From a virus, in the IMG/VR virus record IMGVR_UViG_3300027987_000091, positions 1 to 20,814 of that record: a stretch of 20,814 nucleotides of DNA; one strand, written 5' to 3'. Numbering within the stretch: position 1 is the first letter of the stretch; each line of letters begins with the position of its first letter. Positions 2,515 to 15,682 of this stretch are shown in pieces. Below the pieces are notes generated by a model. That model worked only from the letters and a program-made list of their open reading frames with translations, was not told the origin of the DNA and did not search any database. The translations under genes were made by a program, and so were the position numbers.

Positions 2515-4259
2515 AAGTAAACGGTGAGATAATTGAGCTTGGCAACAGCTATCCGGCTATTACCCGTAAAGCTTTTGATATAAACAACCCTTCAAATAGG
2601 TTTGCTGATATAACCAACCGTTTTGATTTACCAGACACTCAGGATAACAGGGAGAAATTTGAGCATCCTTACTCTGTTGGAAGTAATAACAGGGCTTTAG
2701 ATAAGAGTTACGATGTTGTTATATCTGATATTTTTGAGTTATTCAGAGGCAAAGGTTTTTTAAGCTCAGTAAAAAAGGGATCATTATCTTTGCAATGTGT
2801 TGATAATTCAAAGGACTTATTCAATGCTCTTAACGCGAAATTAAACACTGTTCTTTGGGATGATTATGATACGATATTAACACAAGCGGCTATTGATGCA
2901 CAGGATACTTACGATGTTGATAATTGTTGGATTTGGGGTAAAATGTGCTGTCATAGACAAGCAATTCAGGTAAATACAGATCAAACAACCGGAGATTCAC
3001 GGACAAAATACAGTCGCCCACAATTTAATTTAAACTCATTATTAAAAAGAGCAATTGAAGCGAAAGGCTATACATTTACTGAACCAGATGAACATTTAGC
3101 TATATCAAGTAATCACAAACAGTTTTTCTTCTCAGATTATCAAAAGAGTTTTTCTAATGTAACTTATAATCCTGTAGGTAGTTTGCAGATTACCGGATGG
3201 TCAACTTACGATTTTAAAGAGGCGAGCGTAACAGCTACCTCAACGACAGTAAAAGGATTATCAAAGCATAATTACAGGGTAAGGGGTTATTTCACAGCGG
3301 ATGAGGGTATTTCACTTAGGATTCATTCTGTTGACCAAGGAGGCACAAAGCATATTTACAACACAATTGCTTTACCTGAATCTGGATTCCTTGATTATGT
3401 TACAAGTGAGGTTTATAATGGTCCAACAGGAATGACTACTGATTTTTATTTAATCGGTACTGGATCAGTAACTTTTGAAGATGTTTTAATATATAAAATA
3501 GTTGATGAAAAGAATGAGGATTTAAGTACAAACCATTTTTTAGACCATTACATAAAAGCTTATGATAACTTACCAGACGATTTGACTTATAACGACCTTT
3601 GGAAACTTGTTTGTATTTTATTCAATAAATACCCGATTGTTGACACTTATAATAAGGTTTTTTCGTTCGGTACATTTGCGAACTTGAATAAACTTAACTC
3701 TGTTGATTGGTCAAGTAAGTTTATCATAGGAAGTGAAGATATAAGCAATAATTATTCAGGGTTAGCTCAAAAAAATAAATTAACTTGGGATAATGATATT
3801 ACGGTATTGTATAATCATGGTGATGAATATTTCTTAACTGATAATGAATCTTTACCAGCTGAACTAGATTATATAAAAATCCCTTTTTCATCTTCTATTG
3901 ATGTTCAGGTAAATTCAAATACTATTGCTCAGGTAGAAATTTACGATGACACTACAAGAATACCCGACAGAGATTTAAACAAAAGGGTTTTCTATATTAA
4001 TGGCGATAGGCTTGAATTTGATGAATTGCATTGGCTAGAGCTTAAAGAGTACTATTATAATGATTTTTTCAATTCTCTGTATCGTGTAAGAATGATAACC
4101 GCCGATTTTAATTTATCAAAATTAGATGTTTTTAATTGGGAGAAAAATAAATTAGTTTATATTGATTATTTTAAAACTACATTTTTTGTTTTAGAAATAA
4201 GTAATTTTATACCTGGAAGAAAAACTAAATGTAAATTATTGGCATATGGCCGGACTTAG
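2505..4259 (+). CDS. Putative distal tail / baseplate hub protein
   Basis: This 584-residue protein opens with a strand-rich N-terminal domain (residues about 1-110) containing an ITNRFDLPDT segment; openings of this style recur in large tail-tip proteins of Bacteroidetes siphophages, as far as I recall. Residues about 222-332 look like an inserted beta-sandwich resembling carbohydrate-binding modules: a GWSTYDF start, an aromatic R-V-R-G-Y-F strand, and a closing FEDVLIY strand typical of CBM-like domains. Residues about 350-584 return to a structural tail-protein pattern with many aromatic residues. It overlaps its upstream neighbour by 10 bases and the next gene by 14. Role: tail-tip structural platform, perhaps with glycan contact. 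The structural role is likely; the CBM-like insertion is by pattern only. Confidence 0.6.
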   Translation: MEVKVNGEIIELGNSYPAITRKAFDINNPSNRFADITNRFDLPDTQDNREKFEHPYSVGSNNRALDKSYDVVISDIFELFRGKGFLSSVKKGSLSLQCVDNSKDLFNALNAKLNTVLWDDYDTILTQAAIDAQDTYDVDNCWIWGKMCCHRQAIQVNTDQTTGDSRTKYSRPQFNLNSLLKRAIEAKGYTFTEPDEHLAISSNHKQFFFSDYQKSFSNVTYNPVGSLQITGWSTYDFKEASVTATSTTVKGLSKHNYRVRGYFTADEGISLRIHSVDQGGTKHIYNTIALPESGFLDYVTSEVYNGPTGMTTDFYLIGTGSVTFEDVLIYKIVDEKNEDLSTNHFLDHYIKAYDNLPDDLTYNDLWKLVCILFNKYPIVDTYNKVFSFGTFANLNKLNSVDWSSKFIIGSEDISNNYSGLAQKNKLTWDNDITVLYNHGDEYFLTDNESLPAELDYIKIPFSSSIDVQVNSNTIAQVEIYDDTTRIPDRDLNKRVFYINGDRLEFDELHWLELKEYYYNDFFNSLYRVRMITADFNLSKLDVFNWEKNKLVYIDYFKTTFFVLEISNFIPGRKTKCKLLAYGRT

Positions 4260-4689
4260 TGATGACATATCAAATCTAATCGAAAAGAAAGTAATAGCTT
4301 TTAAAGAAGATTTTTTAAGGTTATTGACTGGTGAGCGTGGTTTAACAATGGACAGTAGAGCTGTAGACAGTTTAACGGTTATTGTTAATGAGAATGAAAA
4401 ATTTGTATCGCTTGAAGCAGTAAATTATATTTATTATGTAATTCACGGTAGGAGACCTGGGAAATTTCCCCCACCTAACGAAAATGGTGAATGGCCTCTT
4501 CCTTATCCGGCGGCAAAACAAATAGCTGAGTTTGGGAATATTGAAAAATACAGACCTATTGCGAATATGTTCGATAAGATGTATAATGAATTAATTAGAG
4601 AAATAGAAAAAGAAAGTCAGGAAGTATCAACAGTATATGCAACGAAAGTTTTATCATTCAAAAATAAGCAGATATGGCAGAGACAGTAA
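4246..4689 (+). CDS. Putative tail-completion / minor tail protein
   Basis: A 147-residue protein with a helical N-terminus and a conspicuous HGRRPGKFPPP motif at residues about 67-77. A Gly-Arg-x-Pro-Gly-x-x-Pro motif of this kind is seen in small phage tail-completion or HK97-gp10-like proteins, which join the tail tube to its terminator or connector. It overlaps the baseplate gene by 14 bases and the tape-measure gene by 16, so the three are translationally coupled. The position next to the tape measure suits a tail-assembly role. The motif match is by eye and the exact function (terminator, completion or chaperone) is not settled. Confidence 0.5.
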   Translation: MAGLSDDISNLIEKKVIAFKEDFLRLLTGERGLTMDSRAVDSLTVIVNENEKFVSLEAVNYIYYVIHGRRPGKFPPPNENGEWPLPYPAAKQIAEFGNIEKYRPIANMFDKMYNELIREIEKESQEVSTVYATKVLSFKNKQIWQRQ

Positions 4690-8608: not shown

Positions 8609-9541
8609 ATGCCACTAACATTATCTAATTCAAATTACGGCGGAGAGGTTGCGGATAAAATTTTCCTTAACCTTGGTTTAGGCAATGAGATTGCCGAAAA
8701 AGTCATAGCCGAAATGGTAACTGATGTTGCCGGAGATTACAGTATGCCAAATATGGAGGGAACTGAAAAACCTTTTGGCGTGTATACAGAGGAAGTGCCC
8801 ACTACTGATACAGAAACCATAACATACGGAGAGCGAAAGTTATCAATGGCTAAGTCAACTATTTGGCTTACTTTTAACCCAGATAATTTTCATGGAACAA
8901 TTTGGAAGAAATGGCAATCTGTAGGTGATTTCACAAATCTACAAATGAACACTCAATTTGTAAGTGCGCTACTTGAAGTACTTATGCAAAAAGCCGGAAA
9001 TCATTATTCTGCCTTGTGCTTCCAAGCTGATACTAGTTTGGCTCCTGGAACAAGAATGCATTATTTTGACGGTTGGGTAACTCGTGCTATTGCTGATGCA
9101 AATGTAATCAAGCCTGATCCGCTTGGCGATATCAATAGTAATAACTTTGCTTCGATTCTTGCAGCATTTTGGCAAGCTATACCTAACCATCTTTTATTTG
9201 ATGATGATTTCACAGCTAAGGTTAGTTTAGCAGATTGGAAAATTATGCAGATCGCCAATACTGAGTTAACTAAAAACTTTGCCGGAATATTGGGAGCTGA
9301 TTTAAAAGATGCTAAATATTTGACGCAAAAAATGATTCCTTTTGAAGGAATGAAGCAGAATTATATTTTAGGAGCTAAGTCTGACAACCTACATGCAGGT
9401 TTCTGGATGCCTCTTGAAAGTGAGAGTATGATCATCGACAAACTTGCTCCTCATTCTAAAAAATGGGGTATGCGACTTGATGTAAAAATCGATGCTAATT
9501 ACGCGCTTCCAAAAGAAGTTGTGTTATATGAACCCGCTTAA
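8609..9541 (+). CDS. Major capsid protein (putative)
   Basis: A 310-residue soluble protein directly after the prohead protease, with a strong ribosome site. Its sequence shows an N-terminal arm, an Asp/Thr-rich beta segment (about 55-85), a Trp-containing region (about 88-105), long helices in the middle (about 110-140 and 175-225) and a beta-rich C-terminus ending VVLYEPA. Length and layout suit an HK97-fold capsid protein, and Bacteroidetes phages have capsid proteins of about this size at this locus. No motif is diagnostic by eye, so the call rests on position after the protease, size, strong translation signal and general composition. No processing site can be named. Confidence 0.75.
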   Translation: MPLTLSNSNYGGEVADKIFLNLGLGNEIAEKVIAEMVTDVAGDYSMPNMEGTEKPFGVYTEEVPTTDTETITYGERKLSMAKSTIWLTFNPDNFHGTIWKKWQSVGDFTNLQMNTQFVSALLEVLMQKAGNHYSALCFQADTSLAPGTRMHYFDGWVTRAIADANVIKPDPLGDINSNNFASILAAFWQAIPNHLLFDDDFTAKVSLADWKIMQIANTELTKNFAGILGADLKDAKYLTQKMIPFEGMKQNYILGAKSDNLHAGFWMPLESESMIIDKLAPHSKKWGMRLDVKIDANYALPKEVVLYEPA

Positions 9542-9544
9542 TCG

Positions 9545-9551
9545 AAAGGAG
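9545..9551 (+). promoter_or_regulatory. Shine-Dalgarno for the signal-peptide gene
   Basis: AAAGGAG lies six bases before the ATG at 9558, in a 16-base gap after the capsid stop. It supports expression of the small secreted-type protein and its chosen start. Confidence 0.6.
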
Positions 9552-9557
9552 TAAAAA

Positions 9558-9986
9558 ATGAAAAGATTATTATCATTAATAGTTCTTATTGCATTTGCGT
9601 TAACAGTTAGCGCACAGCAATATAAGTACACTTTTGCAACTGATACTGTTCAAGGTGATACAACCTATTACCCATCGAGTAATTCAGCACCGGAAGTATT
9701 ACGACCTTCATACGGTTTAAAATCAAGTATTACAACTGGTGTTGTATCGTTTACTTTCACCCATACTGATATTGCGGATTCATTAGCATTTGCAGGGATT
9801 GAAGGTAGTAATGATGCAAGTAATTGGACTTCATTGTCTACATTAGCAGCAACAAGTACAGACGGCACGAGTACTATTAATACAAGTACACCTTTGCTTT
9901 GGCTGTATTATAGAGTAAGGCTTTCTTGTGCTTCAGGTGATACGGTTAAAATAACCAGTCCTACGTTAATTTATAAGGAGGATTAG
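9558..9986 (+). CDS. Small protein with Sec signal peptide, capsid module
   Basis: A 142-residue protein that begins with a textbook Sec signal: MKR, a hydrophobic core at about residues 4-17, and a signal-peptidase-I site VSA before Gln20 (no lipobox Cys). The mature part of about 123 residues is Thr/Ser-rich and beta-structured. Residues about 78-130 carry a GSNDASNW loop and a YYRVRLS strand, the pattern of small beta-sandwich modules frequent in phage surface and tail proteins. It lies between the capsid and tail-tube genes with its own strong ribosome site. A secreted protein inside a head operon is odd: it could be a capsid decoration exposed at lysis, or a periplasmic/outer-surface protein acting on the host (for example superinfection exclusion). 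Signal peptide: clear. Function: unknown. Confidence 0.7.
   Translation: MKRLLSLIVLIAFALTVSAQQYKYTFATDTVQGDTTYYPSSNSAPEVLRPSYGLKSSITTGVVSFTFTHTDIADSLAFAGIEGSNDASNWTSLSTLAATSTDGTSTINTSTPLLWLYYRVRLSCASGDTVKITSPTLIYKED
9975..9981 (+). promoter_or_regulatory. Shine-Dalgarno for the tail-tube-like gene
   Basis: AAGGAGG lies eight bases before the ATG at 9990 and inside the last codons of the upstream gene. It is another strong site in a window where most starts lack one. Confidence 0.65.
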
Positions 9987-9989
9987 ATT

Positions 9990-10544
9990 ATGGCTTGCAA
10001 AATTGATAGAGGTAGCGCGTTTGATTGCGCTACTTTAACACAAGGGGGAGTTAAGGATTATTTCTATTTGATCAATAAGGAGGATTTTGACGCAAATCAA
10101 TTACTTACTATTGACGCAACATCAAAGGAGATAACCGCGTTAACCCTTGCTTCAGGAACACAGGGGTATAAGTTCATGGCTCCGAAAGGGTCATTACATA
10201 TATTACCTACTGGTATTCAGAGAAAGACAAATTCTTTAGGAGGGTTCGATCATTCTCTAGATGTTAGAATTACTGACACTTCACAACTTTCTATTGAGAA
10301 TTTGGAGAAATTACAATTTCAGAAAGTTGTTGCTATTGTTCCGTTATTAAACGGTAAGTTTAAATTATACGGTCGCAATGTAGGGTTAAGAATGGATGTG
10401 TTTGAAATTATGGATGCTGACCCAGACACAGCCGGAACAGCTCATTTAGTTTTGGCAGCACCGGACGATCCACCAGAAGTGCACAATCCTATTATTATTA
10501 GCTCAGATTTTGACATTACAACCCTAGATACACCAGCGGCGTAA
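9990..10544 (+). CDS. Major tail (tube) protein-like
   Basis: A 184-residue protein starting MACKIDRGSAFDC with a strong ribosome site. Residues about 35-125 alternate strands and turns. Residues about 104-130 (LEKLQFQKVVAIV, then an NGKFKLYGRNVGLR turn) match the pattern of Bacteroidetes-phage tail tube proteins, where a K-x-K-L-Y-G strand precedes a Gly-Leu turn. The acidic C-terminal end is probably flexible. Tube proteins polymerise around the tape measure to form the tail. The strong ribosome site fits a high-copy virion protein. An alternative is a head decoration or connector protein; tube is preferred from the strand pattern and the two small ORFs that follow, where tail-assembly chaperones often lie. 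Confidence 0.55.
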   Translation: MACKIDRGSAFDCATLTQGGVKDYFYLINKEDFDANQLLTIDATSKEITALTLASGTQGYKFMAPKGSLHILPTGIQRKTNSLGGFDHSLDVRITDTSQLSIENLEKLQFQKVVAIVPLLNGKFKLYGRNVGLRMDVFEIMDADPDTAGTAHLVLAAPDDPPEVHNPIIISSDFDITTLDTPAA

Positions 10545-10976: not shown

Positions 10977-12352
10977 TGAGAACCGACATATCAACTATAA
11001 AACAGTATGAAGATAATTTAATTGACAGTGATTTAAAAGTTGCTGTCAATTCTATTCAGAGAACATTGTTTGTTGAGAGAATGTGTGTTAACACTTCATT
11101 CCCTGTCAACTTAATAATTCCTTATGATAATGATAATCTTTATCCGAACAAGGTAAAATCAATATCCCAAAGGTCAGGAACGACAATGAGCGCAATCGGT
11201 GTATTATCTTCATTTATATCCGGCGATGGATTCCCTCAGATGAAAACAATTGTAAATTCAGAAGGCCAAACGCTTTGGGATATATGCCGCTTTATAGCTG
11301 ATAGTAAAAGTATGTTCAAAGGGTTTGCGCTTCATTTTAACTATAATATTTTCGGTCAGATAACCGAGATAAACCAGATTAATTTTGAGACAATAAGACT
11401 GTATAAAGATTTGTACAGATATGTATATAATCCTGACTGGTCAAATAGTTATCATTACAAAAACAAAGAAACAATTTACAACCCTTTCTTTCCTGAGAAT
11501 GTTGTTAATGAAATAAAAGAATGCGGTGGAATTGATAAGTATAAAGGACAAATTTACTACTGGATTCCAAACCAGAAGGATTATTACACGACATGTAATT
11601 TTGATAGTGTTCTGGACGATGCACAATTTGAAGCTGAGGCAAAGTTATATTCTTTAAGTTCTATCCAAAATGATTATGCTTTAAGCGGAATTATTTCTTA
11701 TCCTAAGAATATTGAAACGAATGACGGAAAAGAAAGTGTAAAAAAAGAATTAAAAGGAGATACCGGATCAGGGAACGCCGGAGGCGTTAGGGTTATACCC
11801 ACGCCTTTTACAGATGAGTTTAAAGATTGGAAATGGTTTACACCTATATCCAGAAATAATATTGACAGCCTACACACTAATCAAATTGAAAGGGCTAAGT
11901 TTAATATTTACGCAGCTTTTAGAATACCGCCAATTCTGGCTGGAGTTTCAAAAGACGGTATGTTTAATGAATCTTCTTTTGCGGATGCTTTTAATTACTA
12001 CAATGCTTCGACAGAGACAGAAAGAAAAGAAGTTGAAAGTGAACTAAATAAAATTATTTCGAAAAGCATTTGGGCCGGTATCGGAGAAATACAAATACAG
12101 GCTAAAAATTACGTTACAAGGGAAAGTAAAAATTCTCAGCCTGTAGCAAGTGAAGAGCCACAAGCACAAACAAACAGCACCTTAACAAACTTAACAGGCC
12201 GTCAATTACAGGGTGTTTTTAGAATAACAAGAAAGTATAAAAAAGGCGAGCTTACAAAAGATCAAGCCGGAATAATGCTAAAAGATGGCTTCGGGTTTAA
12301 TGATGAGCAAATAGAATCTTGGTTGATTAACGATGATGAGGAGGTTGTATAA
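10976..12352 (+). CDS. Portal protein
   Basis: The 458-residue protein has portal hallmarks. Residues about 50-80 hold a YDNDNLYPN motif followed by a Ser-Gly-Thr segment and FISGDGF, an N-terminal pattern I associate with portals of Bacteroidetes phages. Residues about 295-350 hold the conserved portal segment FRIPPILAGVSKDGMFNESS, then an alternating aromatic helix and E-x-E-x-x-L-N-K-I-I. Residues about 380-458 are a variable tail with a helical end. Portals form the dodecameric ring through which DNA enters and to which the tail joins. It shares TAATG boundaries with the genes on both sides. Position after capsid and tube genes is unusual. Confident call. Confidence 0.8.
   Translation: MRTDISTIKQYEDNLIDSDLKVAVNSIQRTLFVERMCVNTSFPVNLIIPYDNDNLYPNKVKSISQRSGTTMSAIGVLSSFISGDGFPQMKTIVNSEGQTLWDICRFIADSKSMFKGFALHFNYNIFGQITEINQINFETIRLYKDLYRYVYNPDWSNSYHYKNKETIYNPFFPENVVNEIKECGGIDKYKGQIYYWIPNQKDYYTTCNFDSVLDDAQFEAEAKLYSLSSIQNDYALSGIISYPKNIETNDGKESVKKELKGDTGSGNAGGVRVIPTPFTDEFKDWKWFTPISRNNIDSLHTNQIERAKFNIYAAFRIPPILAGVSKDGMFNESSFADAFNYYNASTETERKEVESELNKIISKSIWAGIGEIQIQAKNYVTRESKNSQPVASEEPQAQTNSTLTNLTGRQLQGVFRITRKYKKGELTKDQAGIMLKDGFGFNDEQIESWLINDDEEVV
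12338..12344 (+). promoter_or_regulatory. Shine-Dalgarno for the connector gene
   Basis: GAGGAGG lies seven bases before the ATG at 12352 and within the last codons of the portal gene. It may be partly a by-product of the acidic C-terminus it encodes (DDEE). Confidence 0.45.
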
Positions 12353-13214: not shown

Positions 13215-13245
13215 TTTGTATATTAATAACAAAGTGTTATATTTG
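13215..13245 (+). promoter_or_regulatory. Promoter P1 for the methyltransferase/cassette block
   Basis: TTTG (13215-13218), 19 bases, then TATATTTG (13238-13245) is a full match to the Bacteroidetes TTTG / TAnnTTTG consensus. It lies between a terminator and the methyltransferase ATG at 13267. The whole element (13216-13246) recurs with one extra base and three substitutions at 14656-14687, upstream of the recombination operon. Confidence 0.7.
13226..13240. promoter_or_regulatory. 15-base inverted repeat operator, copy 1
   Basis: ATAACA-AAG-TGTTAT is a perfect inverted repeat with six-base arms and a three-base spacer. It sits between the -33 and -7 promoter elements and overlaps the start of the -7, where a dimeric repressor would block polymerase. 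The same 15 bases occur at 14667-14681 in the equivalent place. Confidence 0.6.
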
Positions 13246-13266: not shown

Positions 13267-13887
13267 ATGAAAATACTTATATGTTTTGCAGGAATTGGAG
13301 GTGAATCCGAGTTATGTGATGATGTAAATAATAATATTACACATATTGAAATCGACCAGAAAATAGCTCAAAAGCTAATTGATCGTAAAAAAAATAGAAC
13401 AATTATAATAGGAGATGCGGTTGATTATCTACTTAACAACTATTATAAATATGATTTTATTTGGCTTTCTCCAATGTGCCAGGCAAATAGTAGAATGATA
13501 CGTTCAGGCAAGAACAGGAAACATAGATTACCGGATTTATTACTATATGAATTAAAAATTTGGCTTGATTACAATTATGATGGGTATTACGTAATTGAAA
13601 ACGTAATACCTTACTACAAACCAGTAATTGAACCAACCGCAAAAATAGGAAGGCATTTGTTTTGGTCAAATTTTGAAATATCAGAAGATTTTAAAATTAA
13701 ACAACCTAAAGATTTTATAAATAAAACAACCACAAAAGGATCAGAAGAATTAAAAAACTGGCTAGGAATACATTACAAAGGAAATTTATATTATAACGGA
13801 AATCACAACCCTGGACAAGTTCTTGCAAATTGTGTTCATCCGCTTTTAGGGTTACATGTATTTAATTGTTATTTAAAAACTTTATAA
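13267..13887 (+). CDS. Compact cytosine-C5 DNA methyltransferase
   Basis: A 206-residue protein, taken from the ATG at 13267 because the frame upstream runs through a terminator and promoter. C5-methyltransferase motifs appear in order: motif I FAGIGG (7-12), motif II-like HIEID (26-30), motif III-like GDA (49-51), motif IV SPMCQ with catalytic Cys71, motif VI ENV (111-113), a GRHLFW segment (128-133) in the motif VIII region, and motif X-like PGQVLANCVHPLL (182-194). Such enzymes methylate cytosine C5; in a phage this usually protects against restriction. The usual PPCQ is PMCQ here, and 206 residues leaves little room for a target-recognition domain. No partner endonuclease is visible. It is the first gene after promoter P1. 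The family is clear; activity and target site are unknown. Confidence 0.8.
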   Translation: MKILICFAGIGGESELCDDVNNNITHIEIDQKIAQKLIDRKKNRTIIIGDAVDYLLNNYYKYDFIWLSPMCQANSRMIRSGKNRKHRLPDLLLYELKIWLDYNYDGYYVIENVIPYYKPVIEPTAKIGRHLFWSNFEISEDFKIKQPKDFINKTTTKGSEELKNWLGIHYKGNLYYNGNHNPGQVLANCVHPLLGLHVFNCYLKTL

Positions 13888-13889
13888 AA

Positions 13890-14114
13890 ATGAAAATAAA
13901 CTACAAAACACAACACGAGATCATTCAAAAGATTCACGAGAAAGCAGAGGATTTAGAAGGATTCAAAGAAATTGAGTTCGAGTATGAAAATTACTCTGTT
14001 TGGGCTTACGTTGATTGTGGAGAGATCGAGGTTGAACCAGGGGATTACGACACAGAAACGGTTATTAAAAAAGAAATTGAAATTATTGAATTAGATATTG
14101 ATGAGATTTTATAA
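13890..14114 (+). CDS. Small acidic protein, first cassette-like ORF
   Basis: A 74-residue protein starting two bases after the methyltransferase stop. I chose the ATG at 13890 over an in-frame start at 13866 that overlaps the methyltransferase. It is very acidic: about 22 Asp/Glu against 7 Lys and no Arg. A helix (about 8-22) is followed by strands (about 28-40) and an acidic C-terminus. No family recognised; small acidic phage proteins of this shape are common and mostly uncharacterised. Its TAA stop forms the TAAC that opens the palindromic element at 14110-14236, as in integron cassettes where the stop codon overlaps attC. Confidence 0.6.
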   Translation: MKINYKTQHEIIQKIHEKAEDLEGFKEIEFEYENYSVWAYVDCGEIEVEPGDYDTETVIKKEIEIIELDIDEIL

Positions 14115-14236
14115 CGTATGGCGGTATGAAACTAAGCGGTGAACGGTATGCGAATGTATCAACCGCTAAGAACTTAAAGCGAGTAGTGAACTTGCAAATA
14201 GCCCTACCCCGCTTTGTTTTATGACCGCTTGTTATA
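14110..14236 (+). other. attC-like imperfect palindrome, site A
   Basis: TATAAC (14110-14115) pairs with GTTATA (14231-14236). After a five-base spacer on the left and two on the right, GCGGTAT (14121-14127) pairs with ATGACCGC (14221-14228) with one extrahelical G. The interior has two further hairpins: AGCGGT/ACCGCT (14135-14140 / 14162-14167) and AAAGCG/CGCTTT. Nested outer and inner arms with unequal spacers, one unpaired base, a variable centre, total length 127, the gene stop in the first TAAC and the next ORF after the last GTTATA are attC traits. The right spacer is shorter than the canonical five to six bases and the R box GTTATAC is off GTTRRRY. No integrase is in the window. An mRNA or terminator structure is an alternative. 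Confidence 0.45.
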
Positions 14237-14271
14237 CCTAGTTTTTGGCGGTGGGATAAAAACAATTGATT

Positions 14272-14484
14272 ATGACCAAAGAAAAAGATTTTATAAGAGA
14301 GTTGACTGCTCTGATGGAGAAATACGAAGTTGAGATGTATATTGAAATTGACCAAGATTATACAGGCGTACAATGTGTTGAACTTAGATTTGATACAAAA
14401 GATACTTGTGGCAACTTAGTATTCACTGGGTGGGATAGAAATGTAGATGCTAATATGATACGCGCGGAGGCAAATGAAGCCTAA
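14272..14484 (+). CDS. Small hypothetical protein, second cassette-like ORF
   Basis: A 70-residue protein; the ATG at 14272 is preferred to the in-frame TTG at 14266. Mildly acidic, with an N-terminal helix (about 4-18), a strand pair (about 20-40, reading EMYIEID and VELRFD) and a short C-terminal helix, so probably a small alpha/beta fold. It begins 35 bases after attC-like site A, and its TAA stop forms the TAAC opening site B. I do not recognise the family. ORF plus palindrome form the second cassette-like unit. Confidence 0.55.
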   Translation: MTKEKDFIRELTALMEKYEVEMYIEIDQDYTGVQCVELRFDTKDTCGNLVFTGWDRNVDANMIRAEANEA

Positions 14485-14605
14485 CGGTTTGCATAAGATT
14501 AGTTACGTGTTTGATGAACGACTTTTCGCAAACCACTAAAGTTTATTAATAGTAGATAAATTAAATAACCCAACAACGCAGCAATTAATTTTATGCGTTG
14601 TTATA
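14482..14605 (+). other. attC-like imperfect palindrome, site B
   Basis: TAAC (14482-14485) pairs with GTTA (14600-14603). After a five-base spacer on the left and three on the right, 14491-14504 pairs with 14583-14596 over 14 positions with two G-T mismatches (perfect core GCATAA / TTATGC). It opens with the upstream stop codon, as site A does, and ends with the same GTTATA. Sites A and B share architecture but almost no internal sequence, as expected for attC sites. Two competing local hairpins exist: GGTTTGC/GCAAACC (14486-14492 / 14528-14534) and a perfect nine-base AACAACGCA/TGCGTTGTT (14572-14580 / 14594-14602), so an mRNA stability or termination role is possible. From 14485 to 14713 there is no other gene. 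Confidence 0.45.
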
Positions 14606-14633
14606 AAACGTTTTTGAGCTATTTAATTTTTTT

Positions 14634-14654: not shown

Positions 14655-14686
14655 ATTGCATATTAAATAACAAAGTGTTATCTTTA
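14655..14686 (+). promoter_or_regulatory. Promoter P2 for the recombination operon
   Basis: ATTG (14655-14658), 20 bases, then TATCTTTA (14679-14686) matches seven of eight positions of TAnnTTTG. It is a near copy of promoter P1 and lies 26 bases before the first ORF of the operon (14713). Confidence 0.6.
14667..14681. promoter_or_regulatory. 15-base inverted repeat operator, copy 2
   Basis: Identical to the copy at 13226-13240 (ATAACAAAGTGTTAT) and in the same place between the -33 and -7 elements of P2. A perfect repeat of a perfect inverted repeat at two promoters points to shared control by one dimeric protein. Confidence 0.6.
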
Positions 14687-14928: not shown

Positions 14929-15153
14929 ATGATAGTAAAATTTAAACATTCCGTAAAAGAATTAGTGTTCGCATTAATTGACACTAAGTTAAAAAAAATG
15001 GTTATTGACAGCGCAATGGCCGAAATAGACAGCGAAAACAAAATAACAGTTCGTTATTGGTGTATTTGTGACGGTGAAAAATTTTGGGTAAACGAGGATA
15101 AAATATTTTCTAGTAAAGAATCGTTTTTAAATCAGTTGGAAGATGAAGAGTAA
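14929..15153 (+). CDS. Small hypothetical protein
   Basis: A 74-residue protein that looks strand-rich in the middle (ITVRYWCICDGEKFWV at about residues 39-54) with a helical acidic C-terminus. The ITVRYWC...GEKFWV pattern resembles a small beta-hairpin unit with two Cys. It overlaps the annealing-protein gene by 11 bases, so the two are translationally coupled and it may modulate recombination. Function not recognised. Confidence 0.55.
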   Translation: MIVKFKHSVKELVFALIDTKLKKMVIDSAMAEIDSENKITVRYWCICDGEKFWVNEDKIFSSKESFLNQLEDEE

Positions 15154-15682
15154 TAAACCTGAAAAAAAAGAAATTATCACTATCGCAGAAATAGAAAGCG
15201 ATAGTGATTTAAGATTAAAAGGTAATCTTAACAAGCTTAATATTATCCTTAATCTTGCTCCACCTTCTAAATTTATAAAGATTCAGGACGGTGTAAAACA
15301 TGTACCTGTTGATAAAGTAAAATATTTACTTACAAAGATTTTTATTGAATGGTGGCACGAAATTAAACAGGTGCATATAATTGCCAATTCTGTTACTGTT
15401 GTTTCCACGTTGCATTATAAAAATCCTGTTTCCGGTGAATGGTGTAAAATGGATGGGATAGGTGCCGCACCTATCAATACAAAAAAAGGAGCTAAAGCAA
15501 TGGATTGGAATGAGGTTGTTCATGATTCAGTTCATAAGTGTGCCGGTGCTGCGGATTCATTTGCTTTAAAAAATGCAGCAAAAAAATTAGGTCGGATTTT
15601 CGGTGCTGAATTAATGGTTGATGATATCATTAATTACACAGCATTAACAGACAATGAAAGGTTTAACAAAATTAAAGAATAG
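15143..15682 (+). CDS. Single-strand annealing protein (Rad52/Erf-type), putative
   Basis: A 179-residue protein with the pattern of Rad52-like phage annealing proteins (Sak/Erf group). A strand ending VTVVSTLHY (84-92) leads to GEWCKMDGIGA (98-108), the W-x-x-x-D-G-x-G turn of this group. A long helix follows with AADSFALKNAAKKLGRIFG (about 136-154), matching A-x-x-x-A-L-K-x-A-x-K-x-x-G of Rad52-type proteins. These anneal complementary single strands during phage replication and repair. The next gene, three bases downstream, is a RecE/YqaJ-like exonuclease, the expected partner. Family by pattern; assignment among Rad52, Erf and RecT types would need a profile search. Confidence 0.65.
   Translation: MKSNKPEKKEIITIAEIESDSDLRLKGNLNKLNIILNLAPPSKFIKIQDGVKHVPVDKVKYLLTKIFIEWWHEIKQVHIIANSVTVVSTLHYKNPVSGEWCKMDGIGAAPINTKKGAKAMDWNEVVHDSVHKCAGAADSFALKNAAKKLGRIFGAELMVDDIINYTALTDNERFNKIKE

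Follow-up and report, generated by a model that had tools for sequence, protein, structure and literature searches.

Two attC-type sites in a Bacteroidota phage genome probably belong to an integron-like system and mark a site-then-ORF cassette

The window analyzed here, a stretch of 20,814 bases, is the complete IMG/VR virus record IMGVR_UViG_3300027987_000091. Its portal-like, tape-measure, exonuclease and primase/helicase genes identify it as a Bacteroidota phage. In it, two tiny ORFs are each followed by an attC-like site. The features are given below, with cuts marked by a slash; R1 is a covariance model described later in the text.

13890-14114, + strand: ORF A, 74 aa; its stop TAA opens the TAAC box of site A, and no site lies upstream of it
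14106-14240, + strand: attC-like site A with flanking boxes (site proper 14113-14233), supported by the R1 model, a geometry search and folding; box R'' is TTTTATAAC at 14107-14115 and box R' is GTTATAC at 14231-14237
14115-14484, + strand: inferred cassette of 370 bp, comprising site A, a leader and ORF B and bounded by two TAA/C cuts
14232-14271, + strand: leader TTATACCTAGTTTTTGGCGGTGGGATAAAAACAATTG.., which phage cassettes with other ORFs also have
14272-14484, + strand: ORF B, a 70-aa cassette gene of unknown function; its stop TAA is the inferred TAA/C crossover and opens the TAAC of site B
14476-14609, + strand: attC-like site B with flanking boxes (site proper 14483-14602), supported by the R1 model and the geometry search; box R'' is GCCTAAC at 14479-14485 and box R' is GTTATAAAA at 14600-14608

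Neither ORF had a significant match in Pfam or PHROGs, the only two PHROGs matches of ORF B being weak and of unknown function. Searching phages with both ORFs by tblastn, together with a viral scan for ORF A, recovered no relatives, so the window's own ORFs give no information on cassette phasing. ORF A might simply be a regular phage gene, or it might be what an earlier insertion left behind. No XerA/IntI-type integrase was found in the record, which may be a fragment.

Directly 5' of ORF A lies a DNA methyltransferase-like gene (13270-13887; phrog_363, E 3e-11), whose stop codon overlaps TTATAAAA, an 8-mer that also occurs 3' of site B at 14601. We did not accept this direct repeat (13882 and 14601) as the footprint of an ORF A insertion; it is a hint only, as the 8-mer is all A+T and no G precedes 13882. 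A longer direct repeat of ~29 bp containing a palindrome (ATAACAAAGTGTTAT) occurs at 13216-13244 and 14656-14685 and flanks the methyltransferase-ORF A-ORF B block. Its context is promoter-like, with the Bacteroidetes -7 motif TAnnTTTG. These copies are probably paired promoters with an operator, and they could conceivably be older insertion borders.

Site A consists of TATAAC, a 5-nt spacer, the inner arm GCGGT.ATGAAAC, the opposing arm GTTTTATGACCGC, TT and GTTATA, giving spacers of 5 nt on the left and 2 nt on the right. Site B runs from TAAC through GGTTT and GCATAAGATTAGTTAC to GCAATTAATTTTATGC, GTT and GTTA, with spacers of 5 and 3 nt. One unpaired (bulged) base is present in the right arm of site A, and site B has no obvious bulge. 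We searched all 20,814 bases for the geometry AAC, spacer of 4-6, stem, stem, spacer of 1-3, GTT; only sites A (121 bp) and B (120 bp) were returned, and three shuffles of the record gave none. When folded as single-stranded DNA, site A gave z-scores of -4.4 (+ strand) and -2.7 (- strand). A first-pass annotation of this stretch had described two attC-like sites after two tiny ORFs, with each TAA stop forming the start of a TAAC box, and this held for the ORFs, the boxes, the geometry search and R1. Its account of the arms held only in part, since they are longer than it gave. Its caveat that local hairpins compete also held, with site B folding at z ~ -2.5 on either strand.

Inner arms, an unpaired spacer and a length of 57-142 nt, the published range for attC (PMC2727003), are all found in both sites (121 and 120 bp; spacers 5/2 and 5/3). 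Sites of this family resemble classical attC sites such as VCR and attCaadA7 in their AAC/GTT outer boxes, in their inner arms with unpaired spacers, in their length and in keeping structure over sequence. They differ in that the letters outside AAC/GTT vary freely yet match within a cassette, and in the asymmetric 3/5-6 spacers. In the window, both sites have AAC and GTT, and R'' of site B (GCCTAAC) fits RYYYAAC, whereas neither R' box (GTTATAC in A, GTTATAA in B) conforms to the classical GTTRRRY. An Rfam scan of the window returned zero matches.

The leader of ORF B occurs in other genomes. A distant blastn match, phage OP947161 (L003), shares the leader (GTTTTTG.GCGGTGGGATAAAAACAA..ATG) and the gene end (GGCAAATGAAGCCTAACG), with a different ORF between them; a similar leader precedes different ORFs in L018, L083 and L089 as well. 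Following the leader and end patterns took us to more viral contigs, which hold small ORFs in arrays with sites of this kind between them, and also to Bacteroidota genomes. The Aquimarina mytili contig that carries the pattern also encodes a 377-aa tyrosine recombinase (L114:10273-11406), and a long array of ORFs, all in one orientation, begins directly after it. Cassettes in this array start with G/TTnnnnnn.. and end with the complement of their own start, as in TTACCCATA..TATGGGTAAC and TTAGCATTA..TAATGCTAAC. Relatives of the recombinase at E<=1e-70 were present in 46 of 395 Bacteroidota genomes, and downstream of them we observed arrays with sites of 118-125 bp and matched cassette ends of 8-9 bp. 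A chain detector that relied on matched cassette ends alone is strand-symmetric and reports chance chains in some loci (in the window, n = 4 with score 30), so its chains were used only where they stood far above shuffles.

We built the covariance model R1 from 30 aligned chromosomal sites beside integrase genes, without any phage sequence. RNAalifold gave these 30 sites a 14-pair stem with double compensatory changes in 14/14 pairs. R1 sites were detected in 180 of the 395 sampled Bacteroidota genomes, and none matched in 7 non-Bacteroidota genomes. They occurred in 43/46 genomes with a close relative of the integrase versus 137/349 without one (Fisher 4e-13, an upper bound on significance given shared ancestry). 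Of 17 integrase regions, 16 have their first site on the opposite strand, at most ~2.3 kb downstream. This agreement is partly by construction, as 11 of the 17 supplied R1 training sites, but all six non-training regions (L158, L159, L160, L166, L167 and L169) likewise have a site downstream on the opposite strand.

These Bacteroidota integrases match NF040815 (XerA-like) best and match the integron integrase model TIGR02249 in two stretches, below the cut-off. In a quick tree they are separate from the XerC/D proteins of the same genomes (SH-aLRT 99) and sister to IntI, and among solved structures, XerC-like/XerA proteins and the IntI structure 2A3V come closest. Alignment with true IntI showed that both end in a C-terminal S/N-P-L-D motif and that the IntI-specific insert (the additional domain, or patch) is missing from the Bacteroidota enzyme, which also differs in often carrying an N-terminal extension of ~100 aa. 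The fold of this extension is unknown. Chromosomal arrays behind such patch-less integrases can be seen at L114 10273-19388 (Aquimarina mytili) and at L154-L171; some of them contain a second site type of 56 bp or 159 bp.

Applied to the window with filters off, R1 matched site B with 77.1 bits (E 7.4e-17) and site A with 35.6 bits (E 4.3e-7). The next-best matches were the reverse strand of site B at 17.9 bits and a fourth at 8.9 bits, which is noise. A covariance search had been proposed as a check in the first-pass annotation, and this model, trained on chromosomal sites, matches both. The claim that the two sites share design and not internal sequence held between A and B, which do not resemble one another internally; both do share internal sequence with chromosomal sites. 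Structurally, sites A and B are members of one family with the chromosomal Bacteroidota sites that form arrays next to a patch-less IntI-like integrase. A match to integrase-adjacent arrays, here through a model of chromosomal sites only, satisfies the structural criterion for attC. With two sites and no XerA/IntI-type integrase, the record meets the definition of a CALIN. It does not meet that of an integron, which calls for intI with the IntI-specific domain, an attI and a Pc promoter: the window has no integrase, and the chromosomal integrase of the site family lacks the IntI insert.

Of 19 phage records to which the leader and end patterns had led us, 16 contain R1 sites; this sample is enriched and does not measure prevalence. 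No integrase was found in 18 of the 19. When read in the direction of the ORFs, the spacers are 3 and 5-6 nt in chromosomal sites and 5 and 2-3 nt in phage sites, so that the two are mirror images. We counted polarity using the longest ORF between neighboring sites, in 9 phage records and about a dozen genomes. The ORF lay on the strand of the R1 match in 16/17 phage segments and in 2/45 chromosomal ones (p 9e-12, which overstates independence). Phage cassette ORFs therefore point opposite to chromosomal ones relative to site polarity, and the annotated genes between R1 sites in phage P12002L obey the phage polarity.

Two other arrangements were noted among these records. In L044 (~3070-3340, - strand) and L043 (~11100-11500), a whole small ORF appears by eye to sit in the loop of a hairpin whose arms are ~280 bp apart. 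L098, a 47.8-kb phage contig, encodes at 3847-4677 (G411) a 276-aa relative of the Bacteroidota integrase that adjoins its two attC sites; this contig may be a self-sufficient phage integron, or the gene may be an ordinary prophage integrase.

The Polaribacter phages P12002L and P12002S, which infect the same host, provide a natural experiment. P12002L contains eight R1 sites and P12002S eight to nine. In reverse-complement coordinates, P12002L reads from ..AAATTGCAGGTAA into CGTTTGGTTATATGG.. without a break. Between the same flanks, P12002S holds 914 bp that begin with CGTACTTG, a site, continue with a methyltransferase ORF and end with TTGTTGCTAA. Removing these 914 bp makes P12002S identical to P12002L over 800/800 flanking bases, and the shared border is TAACGT. 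The 914-bp unit is therefore a site followed by an ORF, cut at TAA/C and present or absent without a scar. A second cassette difference lies at ~8960 in P12002L (L189) and 9219-10330 in P12002S (L202), again in reverse-complement positions. This second indel breaks 10-14 nt inside the site, in a shared TGTAT and not at the box; not all rearrangements are therefore box-precise.

Phasing of the window's cassette, 14115-14484, rests on the 914-bp indel. Because this is the only precise indel known to us in the phage family, and it shows a site followed by an ORF with a TAA/C cut, we read the unit in the window in the same way: the mobile unit is likely site A followed by ORF B with a TAA/C crossover, as opposed to an ORF followed by a site with a G/TT cut. 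Removing 14115-14484 joins TTTTATAA at the cut to the C of site B, with its box GTTATAAAA, and creates a 9-bp matched pair. The outer boxes TTTTATAAC and GTTATAAAA match over 9 bp, as if an insertion had split one older site. The cassette's own ends (TTATACC and GCCTAA) match over only 3 bp, unlike those of most cassettes; relatives begin with TTAGGC. The two phasings could not be told apart by identity profiles outside the boxes. We found no close phage relative without the 14115-14484 unit, and in viral scans with the gene at 15143-15682 and the portal the relatives were so distant or so short that no empty site could be seen. Presence and absence is consequently shown in the related system and not in the window itself.

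These results revise part of the first-pass annotation. Its preferred phasing, an ORF-then-site unit cut at G/TT, is probably incorrect in light of the P12002S/P12002L indel, which has the site before the ORF and a TAA/C cut. Its count of two units held only partly, with a single complete unit visible and no site preceding ORF A. Comparison of related phages for presence or absence of the region, which it had proposed, yielded no close relative lacking the unit, and a scarless indel was seen only in the P12002 pair. Capture of a cassette by a Bacteroidetes phage with no integrase in view stands as the best reading.

We conclude that sites A and B are most likely attC-type sites of a Bacteroidota integron-like system and that 14115-14484, with site A ahead of ORF B, constitutes a mobile cassette. 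In the mechanism we infer, a folded single strand would be cut next to the AAC box by an integrase of the host, or occasionally of the phage; the evidence does not show that the patch-less integrase is active, which strand serves as its substrate or that there is an attI. Cassettes would be gained, lost and swapped between phages and hosts, exchanging small accessory genes, and ORF B would be expressed as part of the phage operon, using its own leader. Since the record has no integrase, the sites in the window would rely on one supplied in trans, or are passengers at present.

The closest rival to this phasing is the classical one, in which the cassettes are ORF A with site A and ORF B with site B, cut at G/TT of the right box. 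The order in the window is indeed ORF, stop and site, the right boxes contain the G/TT core, and deleting 14232-14600 equally restores the matched TTTTATAAC/GTTATAAAA boxes. We nevertheless consider it unlikely: the one precise phage indel is cut at TAA/C with the site ahead of the ORF, the phage spacers (5, 2-3) mirror those of the host (3, 5-6), and, relative to the ORFs, R1 matches phage sites on the strand opposite to that in host sites. A different objection, which remains possible, is that the sites are true relatives of attC but inactive as recombinase substrates in phages, and that homologous or slipped-strand recombination between similar sites does the rearranging. Integrase is absent from 18/19 phage records, and one P12002L/S indel does break inside a site, in the shared TGTAT. 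Lytic phages also have strong general recombination. Against this, the 914-bp event shares only the six border bases TAACGT and joins at the core box, stem pairing is kept in many unrelated phages, and a P12002L site recombined with IntI1 in an assay (PMC9892861).

It could also be argued that the palindromes are transcription terminators or REP-like elements behind small genes, with no role in recombination, as they follow stop codons and fold. They have no T-run and their AAC/GTT boxes are fixed, R1 matches them in sequence and structure to sites of integrase arrays (E 7e-17), and their borders coincide with those of the scarless P12002S indel. We therefore rejected this explanation, which is virtually ruled out unless the R1 match is coincidental.

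Our preferred reading, attC-type sites with a mobile site-then-ORF cassette, extends earlier work, as phage-borne attC cassettes have been known since 2023 (PMC9892861). Qi et al. described attC sites and CALINs in Bacteroidota phages without integrase, with attC-type sites beside small ORFs and methyltransferases as in the window, and the eight sites of their phage P12002L match the same R1 family. They also showed IntI1 recombining one P12002L attC with attI1, preferentially through the bottom strand. Their analysis relied on general attC models, and in it the attC sites of P12002L were taken to point in divergent directions. In contrast, nearly all sites of the family described here have one fixed orientation, reversed relative to the ORFs, and a chromosomal source family is defined.

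Surveys of complete genomes reported very few Bacteroidota integrons: initially In0 elements only, and later a single complete integron, in Salinibacter (PMC9024848). In at least one survey, integrases were chosen by the IntI domain (PMC2426708). The patch-less Bacteroidota integron family and the reversed phage cassettes were undescribed in the open-access literature we searched; subscription papers and preprints were outside this scope, and a prior description is possible. On balance we lean, without much margin, toward a bolder reading, in which a widespread branch of integrons in Bacteroidota has been missed because its integrase lacks the surveyed domain and its attC sites escape standard models, and in which phages hold a separate pool of attC-then-ORF cassettes swapped by the same reaction. 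Earlier papers call the IntI-specific domain essential (PMC8138268, with reference to MacDonald 2006; PMC2426708, with reference to Messier and Roy 2001), and if a patch-less integrase acts on folded single-stranded sites, this requirement would be questioned. With the gene orientation reversed, cassette expression and the choice of recombining strand in phages become testable questions, and the P12002L/P12002S pair is cultured and can be used at once. Phage cassettes would represent a concrete route of gene exchange between phages and their hosts, small methyltransferases included.
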